This document shows, in pieces, positions 1,225-23,582 of a stretch of 34,383 nucleotides of DNA. The stretch spans positions 1 to 34,383 of the forward strand of contig JAJISE010000019.1 in the NCBI GenBank assembly GCA_022848865.1. The letters run 5' to 3'. The notes under the pieces were generated by a model, which saw nothing but the letters and a program-made list of their open reading frames with translations, ran no database searches and had not been told where the DNA came from. Within the stretch, counting starts at the first letter, position 1; every line of letters begins with the position of its first letter. Source of the DNA: Candidatus Thermoplasmatota archaeon (lineage in GTDB: Archaea > Thermoplasmatota > Thermoplasmata > RBG-16-68-12 > JAGMCJ01). The position numbers and the translations under genes were made by a program.

Positions 1225-1351
1225 TTGCGGGAGCCGCCAAAGACATCGACGCTGCAGGACTGTCGGATGATTTCTCATATCGTTTCGACGAGGGTTCAAT
1301 TCCCACCGCGTCAAAACCAACAATTGAACTTTCATCCTCCCCCAATCAACC

Positions 1352-1360
1352 CTTAAATAA
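1352..1360 (+). promoter_or_regulatory. TATA box of the mre11-rad50-nurA-herA operon
   Basis: CTTAAATAA centred 29 nt before the ATG at 1385, the distance expected for a leaderless archaeal mRNA. It supports ATG 1385 over GTG 1373, which lies too close to the box. Confidence 0.65.
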
Positions 1361-1384
1361 CTTCCAGACGTTGTGGTGCTCGAG

Positions 1385-2578: not shown

Positions 2579-5001
2579 GGACTCTGGAATACTTCGAGGT
2601 CGAGGAGGTCAAGGAAAAGGCCACCGAGCACGTTGAGAGCGTCGAGGAGACCCCGACATCCGATGGTTTCGTCCTAGAAGAGATCGAGATGAAGGACTTC
2701 ATGCGCTACGTGGGTGGAACCTCGAAGCTGAGGTTCCCGAAGAAGTTCACGGTCATCACCGGGAAGACTGGCTCGGGCAAGACGTCCATTCTTGACGCCG
2801 TGACTTTTTCCCTCTACAAGAGGACGTCGAGGACGGACATCTCGGGCATAGGGATAGCGGACGTGTGCAAACCCGGCGGCCATGTGAGGGTTCGCTTCGC
2901 GCAGGGGGGAGGCCTCTACGACGTCGAGAGAGGCTTCACGCGGAAGGGATCTCCATATCTCAATCTGCATAAGAACGGGTCTCAGATATCCGGGAGCATC
3001 CCGGAACTGGAGAACATAATCCGAGACACGGTCGGCTTGGACTATGACGGTTTCAGGAACTCCACGTTCGTAAGGCAGGAGGAGATGAAGGAGCTGGGTG
3101 CGGAGAGCGATTCCCAGCGTCTCCGGATATTCCAGAAGCTCTTCAGACTGGAGATCTTCGAAAAGGCTCAGGCGCAAGCGAAGACGAGTTACGATGAGAT
3201 CCACCACGATATCAAGATCGGTGAGCGGAACGTTGAGTTCCTGAGAGAGCGTCTCTCGAGAATCCCCGAAGTAGAGAAGGAGGCGGAGATTGTCGAGAAG
3301 GAGGCCAAAGGTCTCGGCAGGAAGCTCGTCGATGTGGAGAAAAGGCTTCTCGTGGACAAGGATAAGCTGAAAGACCTCGAGAGAGAGCACGAGGCGTTCA
3401 TCTCGGCGAAGACCTCCATTGAGGATAAGGAAAGGCGCGTCTCAAACATTCAACGAGAGATAGACAAGGTCAGGAAAGCGGATGGGAAGTCCACCGAGCT
3501 GAGGGAGGAGGTCAAGAGGCTCGAGGACGAGACGAGGGACCATGAGAAGCTCATTGAAGAGAGAACTCAACTGAAGGACATTGGTCACTTGGCAGCGGGT
3601 CTCGAGAAGGAGAGACAAGCGCACAGGAAATCTCTTGGAGATGCTACGAAGGAGTTCAGGCGAGAGAAATCGAAACTCAACGAGAGGCTGAATGTCTCCG
3701 AGGGAAGGATAGCCGCTCTCTCCACAACTGTGGACAAGGACGAGGCGTTCCGACTTCTGCGCACCGAAGGTGCACTTGAGGAGAGGATATCGAGGATAGA
3801 GAAGGAGATAACGTGGCTCACCGGACAAGAGGACATCATCAGCGAGATCCAGGGCGAGAGAGAGGATGCACTGCGGAACATGGAAGATGTGAACAGCAAG
3901 GTCCAGGAAATCAACGAGGACTCCTTTGTCCTCAGTGAAATTGAGAACCAGGTTGGCCAGATGAAGAGGGACCTCAAGTCCCTGGAAGAAAGACACCGGA
4001 AAAGAACAGAGGAAATGGAGACTGCCACGGAGAAGGTGGACAGAGAGCTTGAGAAGCTCAGCTTCGATGACGAGGCGAAGAGCCGATTGAAGATGCTGGA
4101 AAAGACTATCACTGAGATGGGCAGGAAAAAGACCAGACTGAAGGATGTCCGTCGGGAGCTCGACGAGGTCGGAGACATGGGAAAGCTCCTGGAGGACCTG
4201 AAGAAAAGGCTCGGACAGGGCGAGAAAGAAATCAAAGCGCTCAAGAAGAGGCTCAAGAGGCTCACCTCAGACGAGGAGAAGTACCAGAACACGAGGAGGG
4301 GCGTCGAGAGCCTCAAGAAGAGCAAGAGCGAGATCGAAAGGGAAGTGCGAGGCAAGGAAGTCCAGATAGAGAGCCTTCAGAGGAGACTGAGAGAGCTCGA
4401 AGAGGAGAAGAAGCAGATGGAAAAGAAGGTGAGGACGCTCGACGAGGGGCGCTCGAATCTGGAGACGTTCGCCATTCTGAAGGATCAGATCTTCCACAAG
4501 AAAGGCGTGGCCATGTACGCCATCAACCAGCTCTTGCCAGAGCTCGAAATCGAGACCTCGCAGAACCTCGTTGACCTCACGGACGGACGGTTCACGCGTG
4601 TCAGTCTTAAGACCCATGAGGCGAAGAGGGAGTACGGCGTGAGGATCGAAGTGGAGGGCGCCGATGGCAATTGGCACGATGTTGCAGAGTTCAGCGGAGG
4701 GGAGAGAACGCAGATAAACGCCGCTCTCAGGTTCGCGATAGCCAAACAGCTGGCCGGCCTTCCACAGGTCGGCCGCACCTACGGCAGGATGAAGACCCTT
4801 TTCATCGATGAGGGTGACCTCGGATCCCTTGACACGGAATCGAACAGGGACCTGTTCATTCACAAGCTCTTCAAAATGGGAGAGTTCTTCGACAGGGTCG
4901 TCCTGATCACGCATCTTGCGGAGGTGGCGGACAAGTTCCCCGGTAAGATCAGGGTGCACATGACACCGGAGCAGGAGTCGAGGATCGAGGTAGTATCGTA
5001 G
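2575..5001 (+). CDS. rad50: Rad50 ATPase lacking the CxxC zinc hook
   Basis: SMC/Rad50-type ATPase of about 808 residues if it starts at CTG 2575. Rad50 dimerises on DNA and drives Mre11 by ATP binding and hydrolysis. Visible: Walker A GKTGSGKTS (about 63-71), Q-loop FVRQEE (about 165), a Lys/Glu/Arg-rich coiled coil (about 195-650), signature FSGGERTQ (about 706), Walker B TLFIDEGD followed by the D-loop LD (about 742-753), and the H-loop His in LITHL (about 780). The first strand (FVLEEIEMKDF) begins before ATG 2689, so that ATG would cut the ATPase core; the strong SD at 2563-2569 supports the CTG. The 30-odd extra residues are acidic. The protein has one cysteine (Cys98, in the head), so the zinc hook that normally joins two coils is missing. 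nurA starts directly after the stop. Confidence 0.93.
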   Translation: MRTLEYFEVEEVKEKATEHVESVEETPTSDGFVLEEIEMKDFMRYVGGTSKLRFPKKFTVITGKTGSGKTSILDAVTFSLYKRTSRTDISGIGIADVCKPGGHVRVRFAQGGGLYDVERGFTRKGSPYLNLHKNGSQISGSIPELENIIRDTVGLDYDGFRNSTFVRQEEMKELGAESDSQRLRIFQKLFRLEIFEKAQAQAKTSYDEIHHDIKIGERNVEFLRERLSRIPEVEKEAEIVEKEAKGLGRKLVDVEKRLLVDKDKLKDLEREHEAFISAKTSIEDKERRVSNIQREIDKVRKADGKSTELREEVKRLEDETRDHEKLIEERTQLKDIGHLAAGLEKERQAHRKSLGDATKEFRREKSKLNERLNVSEGRIAALSTTVDKDEAFRLLRTEGALEERISRIEKEITWLTGQEDIISEIQGEREDALRNMEDVNSKVQEINEDSFVLSEIENQVGQMKRDLKSLEERHRKRTEEMETATEKVDRELEKLSFDDEAKSRLKMLEKTITEMGRKKTRLKDVRRELDEVGDMGKLLEDLKKRLGQGEKEIKALKKRLKRLTSDEEKYQNTRRGVESLKKSKSEIEREVRGKEVQIESLQRRLRELEEEKKQMEKKVRTLDEGRSNLETFAILKDQIFHKKGVAMYAINQLLPELEIETSQNLVDLTDGRFTRVSLKTHEAKREYGVRIEVEGADGNWHDVAEFSGGERTQINAALRFAIAKQLAGLPQVGRTYGRMKTLFIDEGDLGSLDTESNRDLFIHKLFKMGEFFDRVVLITHLAEVADKFPGKIRVHMTPEQESRIEVVS

Positions 5002-6006
5002 ATGTTATTGGAGGAACTGAGACACCGTATGAGAGAGGTCGCTCTCTATCGCAACAATGGACTGGACGTCATAGAGAGCTGTGAGTTCGTGAACTTCGAT
5101 CGTTCTCGGACAGTGAGAGAAATGGTCGCGGTCGACGGCTCCTACTCCTTCCTGCTGAACATATCGAGCATGTGGCTCGCAATCGTGAGGGTTGGTGGTC
5201 TTGGCTACACCTTCAGGGACGGCGGCTACAGGTTGGTGGACAGCGAGAAACTGGAGGCTCCCATCCTCGTCTCGACGGAAAGGCGCGTGGTCGAGAGGCA
5301 GAGCGACCTCCACGTGCAGCTCTTCGAGTCGACGAGGTTGTCAGGAGACCGTCCGCGGGCGATGATGAACGAGTTCAGGCACCACTTGGAGGGGGAGCTC
5401 ACTCTCCAGATGGCGCGGGAGAGGGAGGGTGCCATCATTGCCGTGGACGGCACGCTTGCGTCATTTCACAAGGAGTCCAATCATCTGCACGAGACCAAGA
5501 CAGAGTGCGAGAGAAGGGGGAACATACTCGTGGGCATCTCCAAGGACTCGAATTCTCACGCCTTCGGCGGGGTGAGGACAGACGAGGAGCTCCTGAACGG
5601 AAAGAACGGGATGGCCTTTGTGAGGGTGCCTACTGGATACGAGGAGAAGCACAGAGGGTTCCTTCACGGCGATGTCTACTTCGCCAGGCTCCACCCTGAT
5701 TCAGTGAAGTGGTTCCGCGTTGACGTTGGCACGTTCAAGGACGACCCGTCCTTCGTCTTCTCGAACCTCGCTCACTATGCGATGTCGGGACTGTGTCCAG
5801 GATATCCCTATCCGCTCCTTGAAGCCCACAGGTTCGCCGTGACGATCAGGCAGTTCAAGGACGTGTACGAGGAGGTTCTGCTCCACTTGGGTATCGAGGA
5901 GGGAATGCCAGTCGAAGAAGTCATTGGCGGACTGACGCACGTGGAGGGAGAGAGGCAGGGAGCTTTCCACGAGTATCTTGACCAAGCAAGCAGGGATTTG
6001 AGATGA
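5002..6006 (+). CDS. nurA: NurA 5'-3' nuclease
   Basis: A 334-residue NurA-domain protein. NurA is a Mn2+-dependent nuclease that docks on the HerA hexamer; together they resect 5' strands to leave 3' overhangs for RadA. Metal-binding Asp residues can be placed in MVAVDGSYS (about residue 46) and IIAVDGTLA (about residue 150), with a conserved acidic stretch HHLEGEL between them and a C-terminal His in LLEAHRFAV. The ATG directly follows the rad50 TAG (positions 4999-5001), and the stop overlaps the herA start as ATGA at 6003-6006, so translation is probably coupled. The gene order mre11-rad50-nurA-herA is common in Euryarchaeota. Confidence 0.93.
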   Translation: MLLEELRHRMREVALYRNNGLDVIESCEFVNFDRSRTVREMVAVDGSYSFLLNISSMWLAIVRVGGLGYTFRDGGYRLVDSEKLEAPILVSTERRVVERQSDLHVQLFESTRLSGDRPRAMMNEFRHHLEGELTLQMAREREGAIIAVDGTLASFHKESNHLHETKTECERRGNILVGISKDSNSHAFGGVRTDEELLNGKNGMAFVRVPTGYEEKHRGFLHGDVYFARLHPDSVKWFRVDVGTFKDDPSFVFSNLAHYAMSGLCPGYPYPLLEAHRFAVTIRQFKDVYEEVLLHLGIEEGMPVEEVIGGLTHVEGERQGAFHEYLDQASRDLR

Positions 6007-7544
6007 GCGAGAAAATCGGCGAGGTCATTTCTGCCTCGGTGCTCGGAGGTCTGGTGGCCAAGCTAAGCCTGGACAATCCGGAGGACCTCCGAATCGGGTA
6101 TCCGGTCGTCGTCGAGGGTCGGACGTACTACTTCTACTGCATGGTCCACGACATCGTGAACCAGTCCGTTGATATCGCGGAGAGGTTGGCGGGGTCGAGG
6201 ATGAGGGATTCCATTGTTCCACTGAGCGAGACACACGAGGGCTTCAGCGGGAGGATATTCTACTCCAAGGCGAACCTGAGGCCGATACAGCTCATACACA
6301 GAGGGACCCACAAGCTGTCGGAGCCTCAGACCATTCCTCCTTACTTCTCGGTCGCGAGGCATGCGAGCCTGAGGGATGTCGAGAAAATCTATCAGAGAAG
6401 CGACTTCTCCGCGCCCCTGGGCTCAATCCGCGGCGTGGAGAGATTCATGGTGCACATCGACTTCAGCAAGCTCACGGAGAAGCCTTTCGGGATCTTCGGG
6501 AGGACCGGGATGGGGAAGAGCGTCCTCAACAAGCTCGTGTGCATCGGCATTCTGTCAAGAGAAGTGGGCAGCGTCCTGATATTCGACATGCACGGCGAGT
6601 ACGGCGTATACTCGAGGACGGACAAGACGGAGGGGTTGAAGTACTACTTCCCAGAGAAAGTGAAGGTGTTCTCGCTGGACCCGAAGAACAAGGAGGCGGT
6701 GCCCTTCATCATCGATCCGGATGAGATAAGACCAGAGGACATCATTGTGGCGTTTCAGGATCTCAATCGCAACATGGTCGATGCGATCTACGAGATCAAC
6801 AGGTCTCGAAAGGAAGACATCGTCTCCGCGATCAGGCGTGCGGACCTCGAGGAGTGGGGGCACAGGGTCCACCCGAGCGTTCTGAGCGCCCTCAAGAGAA
6901 GAATGGGGAGAATGCGGAGGTTCTCATTTGTCAGACGCGGCGGAAAGGATGCCTTCAAGCAGCTCATCTCCCTCATCAGGGAGAGGAGGTCGGTCGTCCT
7001 GGATTTCGGCGAGTACGGAACGGACCAGATGGTGTACCTCTTTGTCGCCAATGTGCTCACGAGGAGGTTGTTCGACATGTACACGGAGAGGAACGAGGAG
7101 TTCCCACGCCTAGTTCTCTTTCTCGAGGAAGCGCACAAGTTCCTGGCTCCTAATATCGCATCCTACACGATCTTCAACAAGCTTGCCAGGGAGACCAGGA
7201 AGTTCAACCTCATACTAGCCCTTGTGGATCAGAGACCTGCGAAGATCGACGATGAGGTCAGAAGCCAGCTGGCCAACAGACTCATCCTGTCGCTGAAGGA
7301 GCCTTCGGATCTCGCCTCGGCCCTTGCGGGCGTCCCCGACAGGTCCGTGTGGGAGAGCATCGTTGCGACGATACCGGCAAGAACGGTTGCGATGGTGGGA
7401 GACGCCATACGCATCCCGACCGTAATCGACATCATGAACTACACCCCGGAGAATGTGAGAGAGAACATCCTCGATGGGGGCAACATGACGAGCGAAGACA
7501 TGGACACAATCGCCCAGAAGGTGGACAAGGTCTTCTCATTCTGA
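6003..7544 (+). CDS. herA: HerA bipolar DNA translocase/helicase
   Basis: A 513-residue FtsK/HerA-family hexameric ATPase that pumps DNA into NurA during end resection. The first about 130 residues form the HAS beta-barrel domain. Walker A is FGRTGMGKSV (about 165-174), Walker B VLFLEEAHKF (about 368-378), and the later segment with DQRPAKIDDEVRSQLANR carries the sensor and arginine-finger region typical of HerA. The start ATG overlaps the nurA stop (ATGA). The 3' end overlaps the convergent radical SAM gene by 9 nt. Full length and no missing motifs. Confidence 0.95.
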   Translation: MSEKIGEVISASVLGGLVAKLSLDNPEDLRIGYPVVVEGRTYYFYCMVHDIVNQSVDIAERLAGSRMRDSIVPLSETHEGFSGRIFYSKANLRPIQLIHRGTHKLSEPQTIPPYFSVARHASLRDVEKIYQRSDFSAPLGSIRGVERFMVHIDFSKLTEKPFGIFGRTGMGKSVLNKLVCIGILSREVGSVLIFDMHGEYGVYSRTDKTEGLKYYFPEKVKVFSLDPKNKEAVPFIIDPDEIRPEDIIVAFQDLNRNMVDAIYEINRSRKEDIVSAIRRADLEEWGHRVHPSVLSALKRRMGRMRRFSFVRRGGKDAFKQLISLIRERRSVVLDFGEYGTDQMVYLFVANVLTRRLFDMYTERNEEFPRLVLFLEEAHKFLAPNIASYTIFNKLARETRKFNLILALVDQRPAKIDDEVRSQLANRLILSLKEPSDLASALAGVPDRSVWESIVATIPARTVAMVGDAIRIPTVIDIMNYTPENVRENILDGGNMTSEDMDTIAQKVDKVFSF

Positions 7545-9820: not shown

Positions 9821-9858
9821 GGACGCGGAGGCAGTTTGACCTCCCCCTCTGGCCAATC

Positions 9859-9870
9859 TTTTTATATTCT
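9859..9870 (+). promoter_or_regulatory. TATA box of the DUF72 gene
   Basis: TTTTTATATTCT, centred about 26 nt before ATG 9890, predicting a leaderless transcript and rejecting the in-frame upstream ATG at 9836. Confidence 0.6.
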
Positions 9871-9889: not shown

Positions 9890-10783
9890 ATGATCAGGAT
9901 AGGGACCTGCGGCTGGTCCTACAAGGATTGGATAGGTGCGTTCTATCCTGAGTCCATGAGGGATAAGAGAGGGGGATGGCTCGAATATTACGGAAGGTAC
10001 TTCCCGACCGTCGAGATCGACAGCACGTACTACTCGGTCCCAGGGGAGAGAACGATTCAAGCGTGGATCGCCAAGGGGAAAAGGATGGAGGACTTCGATT
10101 TCTCCCTGAAGATGCACAAGGATGTCACCCACATGAGGATCCTGAAGGACGGGGAGCGCGCCGCGAGCGCCGCCAAAGAGTTCGAGGATGCTGTCGTGAG
10201 GCCCCTCGCGGAGGAGCGTCTCCTCGCCTCCGTGCTCGTCCAATTGTCTCCGAGGTTCAAGGTCGAAGGGGACGAGGGAAGCCTGAGACGCCTCGAGATA
10301 GTCTTGGACGCCCTGAACACGGACAGATACGACTACGTCGTTGAGTTCAGACACAAGTCCTGGCTGGACTCCTCCGGGTACGACTACCTCCCCGGTGTCA
10401 GGGACCTCCTGTCCTCGAAGAACGTGGCGGTCTGCAGCCTGGACAGTCCGTATTTCCCGCGCACCGACACGTCAACGGCCGACCATGCCTACATACGTTT
10501 CCATGGAAAGAACTACGATATCTGGTGGAAGGGAGAGAAGCAGATCAAGGACCACAGGATCAACAGGTACGACTACCTCTACAAGGAGGAGGAGCTGGAG
10601 AAGTGGGTTCCTACGATCAAGGAGTTCGACTCCAAGGCAGAGAAGACGAGGATATACTTCAACAACCACGGAAAGGCCAAGGCCGCGAAGAACGCCTTCT
10701 ACCTGATGGACAGTCTGGGAATCCCACACCAGGAGAAGGAAATCAGGATAAAGGAGCAATTCACGCTCCAGAGCTTCGGCTAG
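9890..10783 (+). CDS. DUF72 (YecE-like) TIM-barrel protein
   Basis: 297 residues opening with IRIGTCGWSYKDWIGAFYP, the hallmark N-terminus of the DUF72/YecE family, followed by the conserved EIDSTYY (about residues 42-48), FSLKMHKDVTH, VVEFRHKSW (about 150) and a C-terminal YFNNHGKAKAAKNA block. The fold is a TIM barrel. The family is widespread in bacteria and archaea, but its reaction is not established; it is sometimes linked to nucleic-acid or metal metabolism. The ATG at 9890 matches both the family N-terminus and the TATA spacing. It is a single-gene unit. Confidence 0.9.
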   Translation: MIRIGTCGWSYKDWIGAFYPESMRDKRGGWLEYYGRYFPTVEIDSTYYSVPGERTIQAWIAKGKRMEDFDFSLKMHKDVTHMRILKDGERAASAAKEFEDAVVRPLAEERLLASVLVQLSPRFKVEGDEGSLRRLEIVLDALNTDRYDYVVEFRHKSWLDSSGYDYLPGVRDLLSSKNVAVCSLDSPYFPRTDTSTADHAYIRFHGKNYDIWWKGEKQIKDHRINRYDYLYKEEELEKWVPTIKEFDSKAEKTRIYFNNHGKAKAAKNAFYLMDSLGIPHQEKEIRIKEQFTLQSFG

Positions 10784-11518: not shown

Positions 11519-11635
11519 GCGTGCTTGAACATTGCGGCGAGCTCGGATAGATGAGGACAAGATCGACATTCCAGACGTGATTTTCGAGAGCGATTCGGTT
11601 GACCGCCACTTTCACTCCCCTCCCCTCTGATTTGC

Positions 11636-11675
11636 GTTATATGCTCACATGCCAGTTTTTCACCATAGGGGGAGG
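11636..11675 (+). promoter_or_regulatory. TATA box and Shine-Dalgarno of the PolB2 cassette
   Basis: A TATA-like GTTATATGC at 11636-11644 predicts transcription from about 11667. The SD GGGGGAGG (11668-11675) follows at once, 2 nt before ATG 11678. The 159-nt gap upstream of this gene holds no other feature I can support. Confidence 0.5.
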
Positions 11676-11677
11676 AT

Positions 11678-12427
11678 ATGCGAGCGATTACGAAGAGTCT
11701 TGTTCTGGATGCCCAGAGAATCGAGAGATATGTCTCGTCCGCCCTGAAACCGCTGGACGAGTTCATTGGTACCTTTAAATCGTCGAGTGTCAACTTCATA
11801 GACAGCGCTTCGAAGTTCCTCTTCGACTTCGCCTCGTTGCTCTGCGTTCAGGAAATAATGAGACACGACCTTCCAGTCGTGTTTCTGGATGGTGGCAACT
11901 CCATCGACCCTTTCGTCCTTGCCAATCTGGCCAAGCGGTTCGGTGTGGACAGAGAACATGTGCTGAGCCGGGTCCATATTTCCCGTCCCTTCACCGCATA
12001 CCAGATGTCCACGCTGATAGGAGAGAGGCTGGAGGATCGCATACAGGAGAGCGGGGCAGGCATGCTGGTGGTCTCCTGCTTCCCAGCGCCCTATCTGGAC
12101 GAGGATTTGTGGTGGCCAGAGGCACTCGAACTCGTTCGGCACGGCTTCTCCACGGTGAAAGAACTGACGGAGAGGTGGAACACCATCACTCTCATCACCA
12201 ACTACAAGCTGAGCAACATGTACCGCAGGAGCGCCCTGAGAAGATTGCTCTACACCGAGCCGGACAAGGTAGTGAGGTTCGAGAACGGTGTTCGGTGCCT
12301 TAGGGTCGTGTTGCCGAGGGAGGAGAGATGGATGAACTACGTCCCGGTGGCTCATAACCAGACCACTCTGGCGGAGTACGTGGAGAACAGGATCTACATG
12401 ACCGCGGAAGAGCCGTTAGTGAGGTAA
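11678..12427 (+). CDS. RecA/RadA-superfamily protein with lost ATPase motifs (PolB2 cassette)
   Basis: 249 residues. The layout is RecA/KaiC-like: a first helix region, a strand-helix where Walker A should be, VVFLDGGNSIDP, HVLSRVHISRPFTAYQM (as in the RadA segment after Walker A), a MLVVSCF strand and ITLITNY (like the VVVTNQV strand). The Walker A position reads roughly IDSASKFL, keeping a Lys but losing the glycines, and the Walker B Asp is replaced in MLVVSCF. It is therefore probably a non-catalytic paralogue that binds RadA or the polymerase. It is the first of three tightly spaced genes ending in PolB2. By analogy with bacterial ImuA, a RecA-like partner of an error-prone polymerase, a scaffolding role in translesion synthesis is inferred. 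Confidence 0.65.
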   Translation: MRAITKSLVLDAQRIERYVSSALKPLDEFIGTFKSSSVNFIDSASKFLFDFASLLCVQEIMRHDLPVVFLDGGNSIDPFVLANLAKRFGVDREHVLSRVHISRPFTAYQMSTLIGERLEDRIQESGAGMLVVSCFPAPYLDEDLWWPEALELVRHGFSTVKELTERWNTITLITNYKLSNMYRRSALRRLLYTEPDKVVRFENGVRCLRVVLPREERWMNYVPVAHNQTTLAEYVENRIYMTAEEPLVR

Positions 12428-12431
12428 TCGG

Positions 12432-12686
12432 ATGGGAAGAACGGTTCCCACATTCAGACTGCTTCTCGAATCCACCATATCTGGGTGGGGGCAGTACAAG
12501 AGGGCCCTGAGACCAAAGGACAAGCAGGTGTTCGATAGACTCGTGAACAAGGCGCGGGCGCATTCGTCCGCTTGCTCATATGCGAACCGCATCGATCCCA
12601 TGGAGAGCATCTTCATGTCCATAATACTCGAGCTGCAGAAGGAGATAGATACGCTCAAAGAGAGGGTTCGGAGCACAGAGAAATGA
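12432..12686 (+). CDS. Small helical protein of the PolB2 cassette
   Basis: 84 residues starting MGRTVPTFR, then two amphipathic helices (LLLESTISGWGQYKRALR, KDKQVFDRLVNKARAHS), an IDPMESIFMS segment, and a charged C-terminal helix LELQKEIDTLKERV able to form a coiled coil. Small archaeal proteins beginning MGRTxPTFR are known to me from other euryarchaea, but without a function. The ATG lies 4 nt after the stop of the RecA-like gene, with GAGGT in that gene's last codons as SD. Its stop overlaps the polB2 start as ATGA (12683-12686), so the three genes are almost surely co-translated. It is probably an adaptor between the RecA-like protein and the polymerase. Confidence 0.75.
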   Translation: MGRTVPTFRLLLESTISGWGQYKRALRPKDKQVFDRLVNKARAHSSACSYANRIDPMESIFMSIILELQKEIDTLKERVRSTEK

Positions 12687-14872
12687 GAGGTTGGCTGTTC
12701 GATGTCTACCCAGACTACGACAGGAATCGCATGGTTTGCTGGTTGAAGACGGAGAGTGGTGTAGACAAGATAGTCGATGCGGATTACTTTCCCAATTTCT
12801 ACGTGCACGGCGAGAGGAGACGGCTCAAAGAAATCGAGGACTGGCTCAGCTCCGTTCCCGTAAGAGATGTCTCATTCGAAAGAAGGAAGCTGAGGCTTGG
12901 AAGCCAGGAGCTCTTCGATGTCCTGAGCGTCACGCCTGCGACTTACTCGGACCTCAGATATCTCGCAGGAGAAATCGATTCCCGCGGTCGCTACAGGGAT
13001 TTCACCCTCTACAATGTGGACATCCGACTGAGCCAGCGGTACACTATGGAGAAGGGGGTCTTCCCCATGGCCTTCATTGAGATTGTGCGCGATTTCATTC
13101 TTCTCGACGAGCAATGGGCGATTCACTACGACATCCCTCGGCTCAGTCGGGTGGAGATGGGGGTCAAGGTGCACGGTCGCTCAAAGATCAAGAGATTCAG
13201 CGACTCCATCCATAGCATCAAACTGGGCGATAGGATCGTGAGAGGGCGCGACGAGCGGGAGATGCTTCTGGAGCTTGCTCAGAGAATGGGCATGGTCGAT
13301 CCGGACGTCGTGCTCACTAGGAACGGCGATTCGTTCCTCTTTCCCTATCTCCACGGGCGGGCCGCTGAGAACGATATTCTCGAGGAGTTCCAGCTCGGAC
13401 GGGAGGCGAGCCTTGTCAGCCCGCGAAGAGAGGGCAAGTCGTACTTCAGCTACGGTCGCATTCTCTACAGACCGCCGAAGTACACATTGAGGGGGAGAAT
13501 ACACATAGACACGGGGGGCTCCTTCCTGCACATGGAGAGCGGGCTCTACGGTCTCATAGATCTCGCGAGAATCTCCAACATCCCTCCGCAGGAGATCGCC
13601 AAACTGTCCCCCGGAACCGCGGTATCCGCCATGCAGGTCAATCAGGCCATGAGAGACGGACATCCAGTCATGTGGAAAAAGAACCTGCCCGAGGAGTTCA
13701 AGACCGCCAAGGAACTGCTTGTATGCGATAAGGGCGGCTTCATCTTCGAGCCCAAGGTAGGCCTTCACGAGAATGTCCTGGAGATAGACTTCACGTCGCT
13801 GTACCCCAGCATAATGGTCCGATTCAACATATCGCCTGAAACGGTTCTGTGCGAGTGTTGTCCAGACTCAAATCACAGAGTTCCAGAAATAGGGTACCAT
13901 GTTTGTGAGAAGAAGATCGGGCTGATTCCCCGCGTTCTGTCCCCCGTGATAAGGAGGCGGATGGTCTTCAAGAGACTGGCCAAGGAGAAAAGAGAAGAGA
14001 GAGCGAAAGAGAAATCAGACATTCTGAAATGGCTTCTCGTCTGCTCGTTCGGCTATACGGGCTACCGCAACGCGAGATACGGGAAGATAGAGTGCCACGA
14101 GTCCATAACCGCCTACGGTCGTGAGATCCTCCTCAAATCCGCTGAGATTGCCGACCAGCACGGCTTCGAGGTGCTTCATGGCATAGTCGACTCCCTCTGG
14201 CTGAGGGGCGAGGGCGATGAGCAGAAGCTCATAGAACACATATCTGGACACATAGGAATCCCTGTTGAGCGGGAGGGAGTGTACAAGTGGATTGTGTTCC
14301 TGCCCTGCAAGACGTTCGACGTCGGGGCCATGAACCGCTACTACGGGATGTTCGAGGACGGCAAGATGAAAATCCGCGGGATAGAGGCCAGAAGGCACGA
14401 CACGTGTGAGCTGGTAAGGAGGGCGCAGATGGAGATGCTGGATGTATTTGCCAAGGCAGAGAGTGTCAAGGAGTTCAAGGAGAACGTCCCGGAAGCCCTG
14501 GAGGTCCTGAGGAAATGGGTCAAGCGGGTACGGAAGGAGGACGTAGACCTTGAGGACCTCATCCTCACCCTGAGGATCTCGAAGAGCTTGAAGGAGTACA
14601 GCGTCTTCAACAATCAGGTCGCCGCGCTCACCCAGCTGAAAGAGGAGGACGTGGAGGTCCACCCCGGTGAGGTGATTCGATTCGTCCTTTTGGACAGCGA
14701 GAGCAAAATCGCGGATGAGAGACTGAGAGTCGCTGACTTGCTGGAAGGGGGGGAGACGTACGACAAGGAGAAGTACATCGAGCTTCTCTGCCGAATGGGC
14801 GAGACGCTCCTTCAGCCCCTTGACTACAATCGGAAAAGAATCGCCAGGCTCATGACCGAGGACCAGGCATAA
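12683..14872 (+). CDS. polB2: PolB2-type B-family DNA polymerase
   Basis: 729 residues. The palm is intact at motif A (DFTSLYPSI, Asp369) and keeps the second Asp of motif C: the usual DTDS is IVDS (Asp503). Motif B reads KWLLVCSFG, so the usual Asn-Ser is Val-Cys. A cysteine/histidine insert after motif A (CECC...H...C, then GLIP) may bind zinc. The N-terminal part has LYNVDIRLSQRY, but the 3'-5' exonuclease residues are mostly gone: the ExoI acidic pair is absent and ExoII reads NGDSFLFPYL, with Leu for Asp; YGLID keeps the ExoIII Tyr and Asp. This matches PolB2, a non-proofreading group linked in Sulfolobales (Dpo2) to damage-induced mutagenesis. Start is the ATG in the ATGA overlap at 12683; an upstream frame from 12572 only shadows the small gene. 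Template bypass is inferred. Confidence 0.88.
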   Translation: MRGWLFDVYPDYDRNRMVCWLKTESGVDKIVDADYFPNFYVHGERRRLKEIEDWLSSVPVRDVSFERRKLRLGSQELFDVLSVTPATYSDLRYLAGEIDSRGRYRDFTLYNVDIRLSQRYTMEKGVFPMAFIEIVRDFILLDEQWAIHYDIPRLSRVEMGVKVHGRSKIKRFSDSIHSIKLGDRIVRGRDEREMLLELAQRMGMVDPDVVLTRNGDSFLFPYLHGRAAENDILEEFQLGREASLVSPRREGKSYFSYGRILYRPPKYTLRGRIHIDTGGSFLHMESGLYGLIDLARISNIPPQEIAKLSPGTAVSAMQVNQAMRDGHPVMWKKNLPEEFKTAKELLVCDKGGFIFEPKVGLHENVLEIDFTSLYPSIMVRFNISPETVLCECCPDSNHRVPEIGYHVCEKKIGLIPRVLSPVIRRRMVFKRLAKEKREERAKEKSDILKWLLVCSFGYTGYRNARYGKIECHESITAYGREILLKSAEIADQHGFEVLHGIVDSLWLRGEGDEQKLIEHISGHIGIPVEREGVYKWIVFLPCKTFDVGAMNRYYGMFEDGKMKIRGIEARRHDTCELVRRAQMEMLDVFAKAESVKEFKENVPEALEVLRKWVKRVRKEDVDLEDLILTLRISKSLKEYSVFNNQVAALTQLKEEDVEVHPGEVIRFVLLDSESKIADERLRVADLLEGGETYDKEKYIELLCRMGETLLQPLDYNRKRIARLMTEDQA

Positions 14873-14928
14873 TTTGATAAGCTGGCGGAAAGATGAGCGA
14901 GAAGGGCTGATTCGCCTTGCGCGAGAAG

Positions 14929-15237
14929 ATGGACGAAGTGGAGATCGTAGAACTGCTCAACATACTCCGGAAAAGAGGTTACTGGATAGTAGAGTCGACA
15001 GACGAGGTCGTCGCCACCAGGCCAATATCCAAGACGAGGTACCCCAGGTTCCACCTCAGGATATTCAGAGAGAACGAGAGAGGCCCGCGGATACTGGATA
15101 TCCACATAGATTGGGAGAGGCCCAGGCACTCACAGTTCTGGGGCAAATGCAGCACAGCAGAAGGGAACACCATCAAGAAGGAGATGGAACTCCTGGGAGA
15201 GGAGTTTCGCTCGCTCGGAGCGCTCTCTCAGCAGTGA
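14929..15237 (+). CDS. Small protein of unknown function downstream of polB2
   Basis: 102 residues from ATG 14929; a TTG at 14917 is also in frame. The sequence is mixed alpha/beta: a helix (VEIVELLNILRKRG), then strands (YWIVESTDEVVATRP; FHLRIFRENE; RILDIHIDWE), then HSQFWGKCST and a final helix (NTIKKEMELLGEEF). The HIDWERPRH segment is rich in possible metal or nucleic-acid contacts, but I recognise no family. It lies 56 nt downstream of polB2 on the same strand. A weak AT-rich element (ATAATTTGATAA at about 14870-14881) could be its own promoter, so it may or may not be a fourth member of the cassette. Confidence 0.6.
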   Translation: MDEVEIVELLNILRKRGYWIVESTDEVVATRPISKTRYPRFHLRIFRENERGPRILDIHIDWERPRHSQFWGKCSTAEGNTIKKEMELLGEEFRSLGALSQQ

Positions 15238-15262: not shown

Positions 15263-15484
15263 TCATTCATGATACGCTTTTTCCTCGACACCCTCTTCGG
15301 ACTGGGTCAGAACCGAGACTCGCTGCTCCGCGCCTCTCAGCTTCTCATCGCAGAGCCGGAAGAGTCGGATCCCCTCCTCGAACTTCTCCATTGCTTCGTC
15401 CAATGAGAGCTTCCCCTTGGAAAGCGTGTCCACGATATTCTCCAACCGTTCCAGAGCGTCCTCAAAGGCTATTTCTTCGGTCGT
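15263..15484 (-). CDS. xseB: Exonuclease VII small subunit XseB (non-standard start)
   Basis: About 73 residues with the XseB helical hairpin: FEDALERLENIVDTL, KGKLSLDEAMEKFEEGIRLFRLCDEKLRGAEQRV. XseB wraps the XseA coiled coil in the complex that cuts single-stranded DNA from both ends. The frame has no ATG, GTG or TTG before the conserved FEDALERLE block. A TTG at 15445 lies inside that block and would remove it. The SD GGAGGTG (15489-15495, inside xseA) has ACG (15484-15482) at a 5-nt spacer, and AUA at 15472 is another option. The start is thus uncertain, but it must lie upstream of 15445. The gene overlaps the xseA end by 16 nt if the ACG is used. Confidence 0.75.
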   Translation of the reverse strand, partial: TTEEIAFEDALERLENIVDTLSKGKLSLDEAMEKFEEGIRLFRLCDEKLRGAEQRVSVLTQSEEGVEEKAYHE

Positions 15485-16704
15485 CTTTCCACCTCCTTCA
15501 GATTCCTTACGACACAGTAAATCTCACCATCCCTGACCATAACGAGAACGTCGTCCCCCAAGGTCACGGATTCGATCGTCTCAATCACGTCCTTGTCCGG
15601 CAGCTTCATCGCGATGGAATACCCCCTGTCCAGTGTTGCCAGTGGGTCAGCGGTCCCGAGAATGCCGCCCAGCTTCCTCAGGCCTTCTCTCTGAAGGCTC
15701 AGGAATGACTCCAGAGCCCGGTTCATCTGCAGGAAGCGGTCATCGAGCCTCTGGGAGTGTGCCCTTATCTGGTCGAGGACCACATCTGATGAGAGGCTCG
15801 ACTCCAGCCTCCTGATGTCCCTCCTTCTGGACTCGAGCATGTTCCTGAGACCCCATACCAGGCTTTCCCTGTCCGTATCAAGAGACGTGTGCAGTTCTAT
15901 GATGTCAGGAGCCACGAGCTCTGCGGCTGCACTTGGTGTGGCTGCTCTCCTGTCTGCCACGAAGTCAGCAATCGTGAAGTCCGTCTCGTGTCCCACTGCG
16001 GAGACCACGGGGATGTGGGAATCGAAGATGGCGCGCGCTACAGATTCGTCGTTGAAGCACGCGAGTTCCTCGAAGGCTCCACCGCCCCTGCCGACTATCA
16101 TGACGTCGATGCCGTCGTACCTGTTTAGAGCCTCAATTGCAGAGACGATAAACCCTGGGGCATCAGCTCCCTGAACGAGCGTTGGCGCCAGGATGATGCC
16201 TGCCAGCGGGAATCTCCTGCCGAGGACTTTCACGATGTCGCGGAATGCCGCTCCTTTCTCGGATGTGACAACGCCTATCTTGACGGGGAACTCAGGGAGT
16301 AGTTTCTTGTGTTCCTCAGCGAAAAGGCCCTCCGTTTCCAGGAGTTTCTTGAGTCTGAGGAACTTCTGATACAGTTCGCCGACACCCTCGAGTTTGACTT
16401 CCCTCACAATCAGCTGATATGATCCGGATGGTCGGTAGACGTCTATGTCTCCGAACGCAACGATTTTCTGACCGTCCTCTATGTCAAGACCAAGACGCTC
16501 CGCGTCGCCTCTGAACAGAACGCACTTCAGGGAGGAATCCTCATCTTTCATGGTGAAGTAGCAATGGCCCTGCGCCGACTTCCCGTAGTTGCTCAGCTCC
16601 CCTCTGACAGCGACGCCGATGAGAGAGGGTTCATCTCTCAACAGATTGCGGATAGTGTCCGTGACCTCGGTCACCGAGAATATCCTCTGAGCCTCTTCGG
16701 GCAT
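15469..16704 (-). CDS. xseA: Exonuclease VII large subunit XseA
   Basis: 411 residues. An N-terminal OB fold (about 1-100: FSVTEVTDTIRNLL, GELSNYGKSAQGHCYFTMKD, CVLFRG) binds single-stranded DNA. The nuclease core follows with KIGVVTSEKGAAFRDI, PTLVQGADAP, VGRGGGAFEELACFNDE, VSAVGHETDFTIADFVADRRAATPSAAAEL, then a coiled coil that takes XseB, and a C-terminal strand region. Exonuclease VII is mainly bacterial; its presence here with XseB suggests an old transfer, though nothing in the local sequence looks foreign. It is slightly shorter than the usual 450 residues. ATG 16704 has an SD (GAGGAGGG) 3 nt upstream and a TATA-like ACTTAAACC at 16749-16757, which overlaps the stop of the HARP gene. 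Confidence 0.93.
   Translation of the reverse strand: MPEEAQRIFSVTEVTDTIRNLLRDEPSLIGVAVRGELSNYGKSAQGHCYFTMKDEDSSLKCVLFRGDAERLGLDIEDGQKIVAFGDIDVYRPSGSYQLIVREVKLEGVGELYQKFLRLKKLLETEGLFAEEHKKLLPEFPVKIGVVTSEKGAAFRDIVKVLGRRFPLAGIILAPTLVQGADAPGFIVSAIEALNRYDGIDVMIVGRGGGAFEELACFNDESVARAIFDSHIPVVSAVGHETDFTIADFVADRRAATPSAAAELVAPDIIELHTSLDTDRESLVWGLRNMLESRRRDIRRLESSLSSDVVLDQIRAHSQRLDDRFLQMNRALESFLSLQREGLRKLGGILGTADPLATLDRGYSIAMKLPDKDVIETIESVTLGDDVLVMVRDGEIYCVVRNLKEVERRPKK
15489..15495 (-). promoter_or_regulatory. Shine-Dalgarno for xseB inside xseA
   Basis: GGAGGTG on the minus strand near the end of xseA. It is the only strong ribosome site for xseB and sits at the same distance from an ACG codon as the mre11-internal SD does from the rad50 CTG. 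Confidence 0.5.
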
Positions 16705-16751: not shown

Positions 16752-17249
16752 TTAAGTATGTTTCCTAATATCGTCTGGGTCTGCCAGATTTCCTTCGAGT
16801 GACACCTCACAATCCACGAATTCCAACCTGTAGAGTATCTGTTCGAGCGTCTTCTCCCGATCTCTTATGGGCACCGCCCACGTCTTCAGAACGGCATCGA
16901 ACCGCTTCTCGGGAAGTGCTTTCATCGTTCTAACAATCTGCTCATCGTACTCAAAGGAGATCTGGTATTCAGCAGAGTTGCTCCTTATGTGAACGACTGG
17001 CAACTTCTTCTCGATGTCGACCTTGTTTATCAGCAGTTCCTCAATGCTCGGGTCAATCCTCAGCAAACAGTTCGCCGCTTCGAATTCCTTCACGACATAC
17101 TTGTAGTGATGGAGCGGAGCAAGCCACTCCTTCGTTTCCGAGTCAAACCTTCTCTTCTCTAGACTTTTCGCGACCTTCACCAGATCCCTGTCGTAGTCGA
17201 ACTCGATGGAAACCTCGTCCCCCTTCCTCGTGATCAGAACCTGCTTCAC
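16752..17249 (-). CDS. Stand-alone protein with two HARP-like domains
   Basis: 165 residues made of two similar halves. The first has IEFDYDRDLVKVAKSL, KRRFDSETKEWLAPL; the second ISFEYDEQIVRTMKAL, KRFDAVLKTWAVPI. Each fits the HARP pattern (beta strand, Y/hydrophobic-rich helix, RxFD-x3-K-x-W-x-x-P). In SMARCAL1/HARP-type proteins this module binds branched DNA and drives strand annealing and fork reversal; in bacteria it also precedes SNF2-like helicases. Here no helicase is attached, so the protein may act as a DNA-binding partner of a separate motor. Start is GTG 17249, with SD AGGGGTGA 4 nt upstream and a TATA-like box at 17281-17291. The neighbouring xseAB genes fit a role in DNA repair, which remains an inference. 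Confidence 0.65.
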   Translation of the reverse strand: MKQVLITRKGDEVSIEFDYDRDLVKVAKSLEKRRFDSETKEWLAPLHHYKYVVKEFEAANCLLRIDPSIEELLINKVDIEKKLPVVHIRSNSAEYQISFEYDEQIVRTMKALPEKRFDAVLKTWAVPIRDREKTLEQILYRLEFVDCEVSLEGNLADPDDIRKHT

Positions 17250-17280: not shown

Positions 17281-17291
17281 CTACTTAAAGC
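17281..17291 (-). promoter_or_regulatory. TATA box of the HARP-domain gene
   Basis: CTTTAAGTAG on the minus strand, centred 37 nt before GTG 17249. It predicts a 10-nt leader carrying the SD AGGGGTGA. Confidence 0.45.
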
Positions 17292-17320
17292 TCCAGAAGG
17301 GAGGGGTTGATGAAAGTGTT

Positions 17321-20784: not shown

Positions 20785-21492
20785 ATGAGTGTAGAGAGGA
20801 TCGCAACATATATCGATGGATTCGACAAGGCACTTGGAGGCGGCGTGCCGAAGGGGCACGTAGTGCTCGTGTGTGGTACGCCAGGGACGATGAAAACCTC
20901 TCTCACGTTCAGCATCCTCTACAACAACGTGAAGAACAACGGATCGAAGGGTCTCTTCATAGCCCTAGAGGAGGGACATGATTCCCTGAAGGGCGCTATG
21001 GAGGACTTGGGAATGAAGAACATCGACGAGCTGGAGCTGTACGTACTAGATGTGGCCAAGATCCGAATGGAGCACAAAGAGGAGGAGCTGACAAAGAACT
21101 GGATCGAGATACTGACCAAGTACATCGAGCAGAGGGTCAGAGAAAGCAACTTCGACATGGTTGCCATCGATTCTCTCGCTGCCCTGTACTCTCTGGCACA
21201 GCTGACCAACCCCAGAAGGGACCTTTTCCACTTCTTCGGATTCCTTCGCGGGCTCGGAGCGACAACGTTCCTCATCTCTGAGATACCGATGGGCTCGGAC
21301 AGGCTTGTCGCATATCAAGAAGACTTTCTGTCAGACGGCATCCTATACCTCAGACAGTATGAGGTCGGGGAGACCGACGTGCAACTGAGGATAAGATGCG
21401 TCAAGATGAGGAGGACGGACCATGAGCGGGGCTACTTCACGCTAATGAAGTCCGACGAGCATTTCATGGTGACCAGCGCCATCACGGAGTAG
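20785..21492 (+). CDS. KaiC-like/RadA-superfamily ATPase, single domain
   Basis: 235 residues of one RecA-fold domain. The opening IDGFDKALGGGVPKGHVVLVCG is typical of KaiC. Walker A is GTPGTMKTS, with Met where Gly usually precedes the Lys. A KaiC-like Glu pair follows in FIALEEGHDSL, and Walker B is MVAIDSLAALYSL. RRDLFHFFGFLRGLG and FLISEIPMG follow. Archaeal proteins of this kind act as signalling or scaffold ATPases rather than clock parts, but the role here is unknown. A paralogue with the same DLFHFF block and GxMKT loop sits at 24201. Its last 51 nt overlap the convergent XPD helicase gene. Confidence 0.85.
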   Translation: MSVERIATYIDGFDKALGGGVPKGHVVLVCGTPGTMKTSLTFSILYNNVKNNGSKGLFIALEEGHDSLKGAMEDLGMKNIDELELYVLDVAKIRMEHKEEELTKNWIEILTKYIEQRVRESNFDMVAIDSLAALYSLAQLTNPRRDLFHFFGFLRGLGATTFLISEIPMGSDRLVAYQEDFLSDGILYLRQYEVGETDVQLRIRCVKMRRTDHERGYFTLMKSDEHFMVTSAITE

Positions 21493-23358
21493 TTCTCTCT
21501 CCGCGAAGAACCTCTTTGTTTCTTCTACCGGATCATCGGTCCGATCGAGGTTCTCGATCTTCCTCTGGAATGACTTCGCCCTCTTGTCCAGTATCACTGC
21601 GACCCCAATGTCGCTCTCTTTCCTGATCAACCTTCCTATGCACTGGAGGATCCTCCTCGTTGCGGGGGCCTTCATGGCATAGTCCCAGCCCTTGTCGAAT
21701 TTGATATCGAAGTATCTGAGCAACGACCTCTGCTTGGCGGTGGGTTTCGGATACGGAATGCCGACCAACACGGCCATCTCCAGCTCCTTGTCCGGGAAGT
21801 CCAGACCTTCGCTGATCCTCCCGCCCATCACCGCGAACAATACGCCGGAGCCTGTCTTGAAGCCGTCCACGGTCTCCATCAGCTCGTCATGCGTTGAGTC
21901 TCTTCTCTCGACGAACAGGGGTCTTGAGATCGCCTCTCCTATGTCAAGGAACTCCTCCAGCCTGTCGTGACTGGGGAAGAAGACGACGATGTTTCGCGGG
22001 ATGCTTTGCACGAGGTTCAGGATATGGCTCTTCAGTCGAGGGATGAGCTCTTCGCTCGAGCGGAGTTCCTCGTACCTCGTCGTCACATCCTCGACGTACA
22101 GGACACGTCTGTTCTCCGAGGGGAACGGACTGGGGAACGTTGCCAAGGTCGTCGATTCAGGCAGACCCAGAGTCTCCTTGTACTGGACAAGTGGTTCCAG
22201 TGTCCCCGACATGTGCACCGACGCTTGGCATTCGGCCACCATCTCTCCGATATGCGATGGGTCGAGGCAGTACCCCTCAATCCCGATGGAGTCGCCGGCA
22301 TTGGCGAGCTTGACGTAGGACGATGCGTCCATGGACGTCCAGAAACTGAGAAAGGCACCGAGGGAGAAGATGAATGATCTGGGGAGCTTGCCGTCCTCTT
22401 CCCTCTTCCGCCTTATGACTTCACCATAGCTCATCAGATTGTGAAACAGGGCTTCCAGCTGTATCGATGTCAGAGTGAGTTTGTGCATGAGATCCTCTTC
22501 GAGCTGATTCGGGGGGAGCATGCCGTCGTCTTCCTCCACGTAATCCGCCACCAAGTGGAGGATCGTATCGTACAACACGTCGCAGAACCCTTTTACTGTT
22601 CTTGTCCCGAGCACCTTGACGTCCCCGAACTTCTCTGCCTCCCTCATGGCCAGTCTCAGGGAGTGGAGCGTCAGGCGGGCGGATCGCATATCCCTCGCGT
22701 ATTCCGGCAGGTTGTGGGCCTCGTCGACGATCAACACCAGATCCCTCGTGTCGACTCCCATCCACTCGAGAAAGGCCGATCTGATACCGTAGTCGAAGAA
22801 GTAGACGTATGGGCAGGTGACCAAGTGAGCGGAGGGAATGAGGAGTTTGGACGTTTCGTAGGGACATATGCCCAGTCCTGTGCATTTGCCAAAGAACTGC
22901 TCCATTGTCGGGATCTCCCTCTTGGCCCAATCCTCTATCCCCTTCAGGTCCGCGTTCAGCAGATTGGAGTAGTGCTTGCACCCGCCCCTTTCTCCCCTCA
23001 CAGTCATGGTCTTCTTGTGGCTGCAGTATCTCATCAGCTCCTCGGGGCTACCCTCCCTCAGACGTGGATTGCTCCTGACCGCGAGGCAGGTCGAGTGCCT
23101 TCCCTGGAACCCCATGCCAAAAACGCCGCCGATGCGACGCATCTCGACGATGACCTGCCTCTGCTGGGAGTTCGTCCTTACGAGGTACAGGACCTTCTTG
23201 CCCTCCGATACGGCGAGCTTCAGCGCCGGATACAGCGCGCATACGGTCTTCCCCGACCCCGTCCCTGACTGCAGGACGATGTGGCCTCCTTGGAGGGTTC
23301 TTTCGATGGCCTGGACCATATCCTTCTGATGCTTGCGGTAGCTGTAAGGAAAATGCAT
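21442..23358 (-). CDS. XPD/Rad3-type DNA helicase with probable iron-sulphur domain
   Basis: 638 residues, superfamily 2. Motif I is SGTGSGKT (31-38), motif II is VDEAHNLPE, and motif VI lies in the QCIGRLIRKESD segment. Between motifs I and II are cysteines at 91, 112, 127, 159 and 165, the last within CPYE, spaced as expected for the [4Fe-4S] domain of XPD/FANCJ/DinG helicases. These move 5'-3' on single-stranded DNA in nucleotide excision repair and related pathways. Whether it is the archaeal XPD orthologue or a Rad3-like paralogue cannot be settled here. ATG 23358 is 28 nt from a TATA box. Its 3' end overlaps the KaiC-like gene by 51 nt, tail to tail. Confidence 0.92.
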   Translation of the reverse strand: MHFPYSYRKHQKDMVQAIERTLQGGHIVLQSGTGSGKTVCALYPALKLAVSEGKKVLYLVRTNSQQRQVIVEMRRIGGVFGMGFQGRHSTCLAVRSNPRLREGSPEELMRYCSHKKTMTVRGERGGCKHYSNLLNADLKGIEDWAKREIPTMEQFFGKCTGLGICPYETSKLLIPSAHLVTCPYVYFFDYGIRSAFLEWMGVDTRDLVLIVDEAHNLPEYARDMRSARLTLHSLRLAMREAEKFGDVKVLGTRTVKGFCDVLYDTILHLVADYVEEDDGMLPPNQLEEDLMHKLTLTSIQLEALFHNLMSYGEVIRRKREEDGKLPRSFIFSLGAFLSFWTSMDASSYVKLANAGDSIGIEGYCLDPSHIGEMVAECQASVHMSGTLEPLVQYKETLGLPESTTLATFPSPFPSENRRVLYVEDVTTRYEELRSSEELIPRLKSHILNLVQSIPRNIVVFFPSHDRLEEFLDIGEAISRPLFVERRDSTHDELMETVDGFKTGSGVLFAVMGGRISEGLDFPDKELEMAVLVGIPYPKPTAKQRSLLRYFDIKFDKGWDYAMKAPATRRILQCIGRLIRKESDIGVAVILDKRAKSFQRKIENLDRTDDPVEETKRFFAERELLRDGAGHHEMLVGLH

Positions 23359-23382
23359 CCAATTGAGTGCTGCTGAAGGATT

Positions 23383-23391
23383 CTATATATG
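23383..23391 (-). promoter_or_regulatory. TATA box of the XPD-type helicase gene
   Basis: CATATATAG on the minus strand, centred 28 nt before ATG 23358, predicting a leaderless transcript. The rest of the 224-nt gap up to 23582 holds a 5-bp hairpin (CCCCT/AGGGG near 23465-23483) and no gene I can support. Confidence 0.6.
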
Positions 23392-23582
23392 GATGTGAGG
23401 GAGGTCGGTGAAACTGGAGCGCTGAAACCATCTGCCGTGATATCGCGCTTCTACGTTCAACGATGCCCCTTGACACCGAGGGGTCGCTCAGGGAACTTAT
23501 GGAGATTGAATACCGCAACATCAACGCGGGCGGATAACCCAGAGGTTCCTCTTACCGTGAACCCTCGTCTCAGAACGCCCGC

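Follow-up and report, generated by a model that had tools for sequence, protein, structure and literature searches.

The stretch of DNA analysed here, called the window throughout, comprises positions 1 to 34,383 (34,383 nucleotides, nt) of a contig of a Candidatus Thermoplasmatota archaeon (GenBank assembly GCA_022848865.1, contig JAJISE010000019.1; class Thermoplasmata). On its forward strand lie three closely spaced genes, iRadA, PPB2 and PolB2, the last encoding a DNA polymerase of family B. They are preceded by a promoter element, referred to below as the box, that recurs before three other repair operons of the window. An earlier reading of the same DNA from its letters alone, here called the original prediction, had singled out the three genes and overlooked the element linking them to those operons.

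The iRadA-PPB2-PolB2 cassette

The first gene (11678-12427, forward strand) encodes iRadA, an inactivated RadA/Rad51 homologue of 249 residues; the second (12432-12686, forward strand) a PPB2 of the arCOG07300 type, a presumably helical protein of 84 residues; and the third (12683-14872, forward strand) a PolB2 of the Dpo2 type with 729 residues, counted from the ATG at 12683. A 4-nt gap separates iRadA from PPB2, whose end shares the 4 nt ATGA with the start of PolB2. The coordinates of the open reading frames (ORFs) thus bear out the arrangement, and the size of the second protein, as originally predicted.

iRadA belongs to the Rad51 family (Pfam Rad51, E=4.8e-05; PDB RadA chains, E=1.7e-05), and a Foldseek search with a model of its core, the only model that served for fold searches and one of modest confidence, returned RadA/Rad51 ATPase domains (best E=9.4e-07). 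Aligned with the RadA of the host, it lacks the N-terminal helix-hairpin-helix domain and the polymerisation linker. The Walker A motif has changed from GEFGSGKTQ to DSASKFLFD and Walker B from LLVVDS to MLVVSC, so that alignment and fold matches uphold the prediction of a RecA-fold protein devoid of both Walker motifs. Nearly all full-length iRadAs carry QxxLx[ED][FY] at the C-terminus, resembling a PCNA-interacting peptide (PIP); the window copy matches it in sequence with QTTLAEY near its end. Since this tail resembles those of the host's FEN1, which ends in QKSLDQWF, and PolB3, which has KLTLKDF, iRadA likely contacts the clamp through it.

For PPB2 the family search gave no match. In 31 diverse PPB2s, M1, G2 and R3 are nearly invariant and R9 is invariant; the window copy begins MGRTVPTFR and has both arginines of the published motif (PMC11791011). 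In L006, L080, L081 and L086 the PPB2 start codon is apparently TTG, CTG or ACG, precisely at the MGRT position, and such non-ATG starts are often preceded by a Shine-Dalgarno-like GGAGGTG. By eye, a VapB-like antitoxin domain is fused to the C-terminus of PPB2 in L059 and L062, and a VapBC-like pair adjoins the PolB2 operon at L006:4134-4788.

PolB2 is a family B polymerase (DNA_pol_B, E=3.4e-32). Its motif C reads HGIVDS, compared to YGDTDS in the host's PolB3, turning DxD into IVD, and its exonuclease site is degraded (VDIR versus FDIE in PolB3; catalytic residues read by eye), in agreement with the prediction of a non-proofreading enzyme. The protein also has an iRadA/PPB2-binding motif, FKTAKELLVCDK, in which a RadA-like beta-alpha motif is followed by D(K/R) (FKTAKELLVCDKGG, FKTA..DK). 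FKTA followed by D[KR]GG occurs in nearly all PolB2s and is absent from the host's PolB3. The FKTA motif resembles the linker of the host's RadA, FETGEALLEKRK, a likeness in keeping with the published view that PolB2 binds iRadA in the way one RadA binds another. A search for viral homologues of PolB2 found none. Split matches revealed inteins in the PolB2 of L008 and of numerous relatives, among them L056-L063; they sit at motif B, near residue 455.

Of 300 genomes from the class, 197 gave a match to PPB2, 202 to PolB2 (some distant matches may be other PolBs) and 194 to both, so that the two genes occur together in 194 of the 205 genomes having at least one, the kind of co-occurrence on which the original prediction had staked its case. 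It would have suffered had the genes been separated in most genomes; by our own count, 38 of the 60 genomes retrieved have the three genes side by side in the order iRadA-PPB2-PolB2, and the remainder have inserts or splits. Contiguity and co-occurrence together exclude chance as the cause of the cassette.

Because the traits that define the PolB2 mutasome are found in the cassette, its three genes are a new member of a known system and not a new system. Makarova et al. (2014) reported the PolB2-iRadA-PPB2 operon (PMC4104785), and Timinskas et al. (2025) modelled PolB2-iRadA-PPB2(3) and, likening it to Pol V, termed it a mutasome (PMC11791011). Shared with the published system are the gene order, the three families, the MGRT arm, the FxxA-D[KR] motif, the inactive ATPase site, the PIP motif in iRadA and a neighbouring DUF72 gene (9890-10783, E=4.9e-57), DUF72 being listed among the mutasome neighbour genes (PMC11791011); the window proteins differ from it in nothing essential. 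The description as an archaeal mutasome-like cassette was therefore apt, and that as a little-described system was overtaken by these two papers.

The plan of the cassette also recalls the bacterial mutasomes Pol V (UmuD'2C-RecA) and ImuA-ImuB-DnaE2 under LexA, with which it shares a RecA-family accessory protein, a small adaptor, an error-prone polymerase and a promoter box common to a repair regulon. In contrast to these, the polymerase of the window is of family B and not of Y or C, the RecA homologue is ATPase-dead, and no LexA box was seen here. With a family B polymerase, and an 84-residue protein that lacks a family match, the cassette falls outside the ImuA-ImuB-DnaE2 group. ImuA is a member of the RecA/Rad51 superfamily; the original statement that the parts are unrelated in family thus holds for PolB2 and PPB2 against DnaE2 and ImuB, and fails for iRadA and ImuA.

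Downstream of PolB2, the ORF at 14917-15237 (106 residues, no family matches) was considered as a fourth subunit and rejected. It stays near PolB2 across the order but not reliably in its operon: in L006 it lies outside, as opposite-strand genes separate it from PolB2.

A promoter box shared by repair operons

The PolB2 operon is preceded by the promoter element ANTTTCR-N5-CYCY-N12-TTWA. Its copy in the window (11608-11641, forward strand) consists of ACTTTCACTCCCCTCCCCTC at 11608-11627 and a TATA-like GTTATA at 11636-11641, begins 70 nt before the iRadA start, and has 28 nt from its first A to the TATA box. It is conserved upstream of iRadA in relatives, where the consensus is A[CTG]TTTC[GA][CG]-N4-CYCYCCCC, followed after about 8 nt by the TATA box. 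In genomes with a divided cassette, each part usually has its own box: PPB2 in L038, L039 and L058-L063, PolB2 in L038, L039, L058, L060, L062, L063, L088, L090 and L094, and in G111, where PolB2 and iRadA-PPB2 lie on different contigs, there is one box on each. We rejected an identity with the origin recognition box (ORB), in which, as compared by eye, the G-string and GAAA come in the reverse order.

To score the box we used a matrix trained on PolB2-cassette promoters from genera other than the host's. On the window, its four best sites (+11608, -17317, -23415 and +1328) all score at least 19, and a repair operon starts 45-70 nt downstream of each. Of 1000 column-permuted matrices, none yielded four such sites on the window and 2 yielded at least two; among 300 Markov windows, 7 contained one site. 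In the 1.19 Mb (59%) of the host genome that were scanned, 9 sites reached 19, against a mean of 1.6 (maximum 4) for permuted matrices. Apart from the four of the window, these precede RPA, MCM (20.7) and a micropeptide (32.3, the best site of the host), and two are chance-like. Counts with a strict box pattern point the same way: in 28 genomes it matched 42 sites and the reversed control 3; in 300 genomes the figures were 217 and 63, of which the host's own order accounts for 41 and 1 and its own genus for 17 and 0 (hand-summed). A first, stricter pattern had given roughly chance-level counts, because it left out the site of the window itself.

Across the class, the genes behind the box include Mre11, RPA, PriL, MCM (in other genera as well as in the host), Orc1/Cdc6, RadA, RFC, an XPD-type helicase, Hef, Hjc, XseA, a photolyase operon and a VOC protein, as well as a repair radical-SAM protein (TIGR03916, slightly below cutoff). 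Some sites have no recognisable gene downstream, as the control counts lead one to expect. The VOC/glyoxalase-fold protein, which is bleomycin-resistance-like, stands behind a box in six genomes (L220, L156, L244, L246, L247 and L295:2013); its site in the host scores 18.3. At G000:C5:30631 (L276:10631), a box-like site is followed by an ORF for a 46-residue cysteine-rich, zinc-ribbon-like protein and then by MCM.

Within the window, the box of the PolB2 operon scores highest (28.9). The second box (17286-17317, reverse strand; score 28.7), which four further genomes of the genus conserve, precedes a reverse-strand operon for a stand-alone HARP-domain protein (16752-17249; Pfam HARP, E=7.4e-13), the exonuclease VII large subunit XseA (15469-16704; Pfam E=6.7e-87), also found behind a box in G055 and G093, and the small subunit XseB (15263-15445; Pfam E=4.7e-15). 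The HARP protein, with two copies of the SMARCAL1-type annealing domain, is thus encoded at the head of an operon that also supplies both subunits of exonuclease VII. The third box, AGTTTCACCGACCTCCCTCACATCCATATATA (23376-23415, reverse strand; score 21.9 in the window scan, 22.3 in the host-genome scan), precedes an XPD/Rad3-type repair helicase (21442-23358, reverse strand; TIGR00604 rad3, E=5.7e-78, above cutoff; Pfam HBB/DEAD_2). The fourth, ACTTTCATCCTCCCCCAATCAACCCTTAAATAA (1328-1367, forward strand; score 19.4), stands before the forward-strand operon of Mre11 (1373-2578), Rad50 (2689-5001), NurA (5002-6006) and HerA (6003-7544). Before the DUF72 gene lies a degenerate box, AGTTTGACCTCCCCC..TTTTTATA (9833-9866, forward strand), whose score of 11.1 is in the range of random sequence and whose position alone is suggestive.

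The best site of the host precedes MDENHYSWEDVYRSYGCSTDYEDD, a micropeptide of 24 residues. A search for HYSWED by codons alone returned 13 related loci (L320-L332, the host's being L325, G000:C11:16920, reverse strand), in which the HYSWEDVY core is conserved and the peptide has 24-28 residues, more in G200. In 11 of the 13, a box lies 80-90 nt upstream of the core; as the search made no use of the box, this result corroborates the element independently. We know of no counterpart of the micropeptide.

A probable repair regulon and its possible regulator

Since the box is common to Mre11-Rad50-NurA-HerA, HARP-ExoVII, XPD, RPA, MCM, PriL and others, we think it probable that it marks a repair regulon of Thermoplasmata, to which the PolB2 mutasome, with its box-bearing promoter, would belong. 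The sequence comparisons strongly support such a regulon as a class-wide one. The accessible text of Makarova et al. (2014) and Timinskas et al. (2025) contains no mention of a promoter box or regulon, the literature that we found joining ANTTTC with archaea concerns Sulfolobales, and as far as that literature shows, box and gene set are undescribed in Thermoplasmata.

The damage box of Sulfolobales is the hexamer ANTTTC, which occupies positions -44 to -39 and abuts the transcription factor B recognition element on its upstream side (PMC5817253); Orc1-2 binds it (PMC9738581). The induced Orc1-2 network of S. islandicus includes the operon of dpo2 (21-26 fold) and herA-mre11-rad50-nurA (PMC10470591). 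By analogy with these species, the regulon of Thermoplasmata would most likely be switched on by DNA damage, and the box may be read by a candidate transcription factor, possibly an Orc1/Cdc6 paralogue.

In the mechanism that we propose, DNA damage would cause a regulator acting at the box to raise transcription of the repair operons. PolB2 would dock onto iRadA by its RadA-type FxxA peptide (FKTA), like one RadA protomer onto the next; a PPB2 trimer would place the MGRT arm between PolB2 and iRadA and steady PolB2 on DNA; and iRadA would anchor the mutasome at PCNA through its PIP-like motif. PolB2 would then act as an error-prone translesion extender, elongating ends that are mispaired or carry lesions and leaving them unproofread. 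For its proteins, this mechanism draws on published Sulfolobus work, from which the catalytic role and the induction are taken, and on the conserved motifs, the iRadA-PPB2-PolB2 complex of the host being a predicted one; the promoter part draws on the statistics of the box.

Several observations weigh against this account. Each promoter contributed a single site to the training of the matrix, selected by our own scoring, and the genomes were related ones. The box was looked for upstream of the two Orc1/Cdc6 genes of the host and is absent from both, and in the PolB2-bearing families f15, f22 and f31 the boxes are degenerate or missing. The 28 nt between first A and TATA box depart from the Sulfolobales spacing. 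The AlphaFold models, one for PolB2 and one for iRadA, were built from alignments of six rows and are of low confidence, with values in the predicted local distance difference test (pLDDT) of 52 for one of the two and 36 for the other.

A stronger form of the regulon reading, and not an alternative to it, takes the box for a true orthologue of the Sulfolobales DNA damage-responsive element (DDRE), ancestral to both lineages and read by an Orc1-2-like AAA+ winged-helix regulator. We regard this as possible, with the balance somewhat against it. The first six bases of the box are the same ANTTTC, with the same free second base, likewise upstream of TATA in repair promoters, and two operons, that of PolB2/dpo2 and Mre11-Rad50-NurA-HerA, are common to both networks; the host has a second, divergent Orc1/Cdc6 paralogue (C9:39938), and in one relative, G076, an Orc1/Cdc6 gene is preceded by a box. 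A signature of six bases is weak, however, the phyla differ, and the box of Thermoplasmata lies about 15 nt further from TATA and has an extra C-rich half, differences for which we treat the identity of the two systems as hypothetical. The gene sets differ as well: RPA, MCM, PriL, XPD, ExoVII and Hjc are additional here, whereas ups, ced and tfb3 of Sulfolobus did not turn up in the gene set identified downstream of it.

That MCM, PriL, RFC, RPA and Orc1 stand behind the box could also mean that it belongs to replication or cell-cycle promoters, for instance as an S-phase or growth-linked element, the repair genes riding along with the replication genes. This is unlikely, as dedicated repair genes dominate (the PolB2 cassette, Mre11, Hjc, XPD, Hef, ExoVII and the photolyase operon) and the PolB2 and mre11 operons are damage-induced in Sulfolobus (PMC10470591). 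It is less probable still that PolB2 is a catalytically dead scaffold and that the cassette regulates replication without lesion bypass. The loss of the first aspartate of motif C and of the exonuclease residues would suit a dead enzyme, and PolB2 was first predicted to be one (PMC4104785), yet Dpo2 of S. islandicus, with a similar loss in motif C, is an active translesion synthesis polymerase and the sole source of targeted mutagenesis (PMC7390963; PMC11791011). A general core-promoter feature, linked to repair genes by chance, would account for the usually fixed distance from the TATA box, but is very improbable given the far lower reversed-pattern counts and only nine high-scoring sites in 1.19 Mb, of which four fall in the window and two or three others precede replication genes or a conserved ORF.

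Implications for Thermoplasmata

We found no Y-family polymerase in the host genus (five genomes), nor in at least 61 PPB2-bearing genomes with a completeness of at least 90%. The PolB2 mutasome is therefore possibly the sole translesion system of the host genus, and PolB2 may be the only translesion polymerase in all these organisms. The micropeptide is a candidate damage-induced effector.

To our knowledge, archaeal global damage regulons are known in detail only in Sulfolobales. We tentatively suggest, while holding it to be rather less than an even chance, that Thermoplasmata possess an SOS-like damage regulon, comprising the mutasome, Mre11-Rad50-NurA-HerA, ExoVII, XPD, RPA, RadA, replication genes and the micropeptide with its HYSWEDVY core, that shares a common ancestry with the Orc1-2/DDRE system. 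If so, the archaeal counterpart of the SOS response would be older than the split of the phyla. With a box legible in the DNA itself and a list of recognisable repair genes behind it, the generality of an archaeal SOS-like response becomes testable, and cultured Thermoplasmata suited to the question are at hand in Thermoplasma, Cuniculiplasma, Aciduliprofundum and Methanomassiliicoccus.

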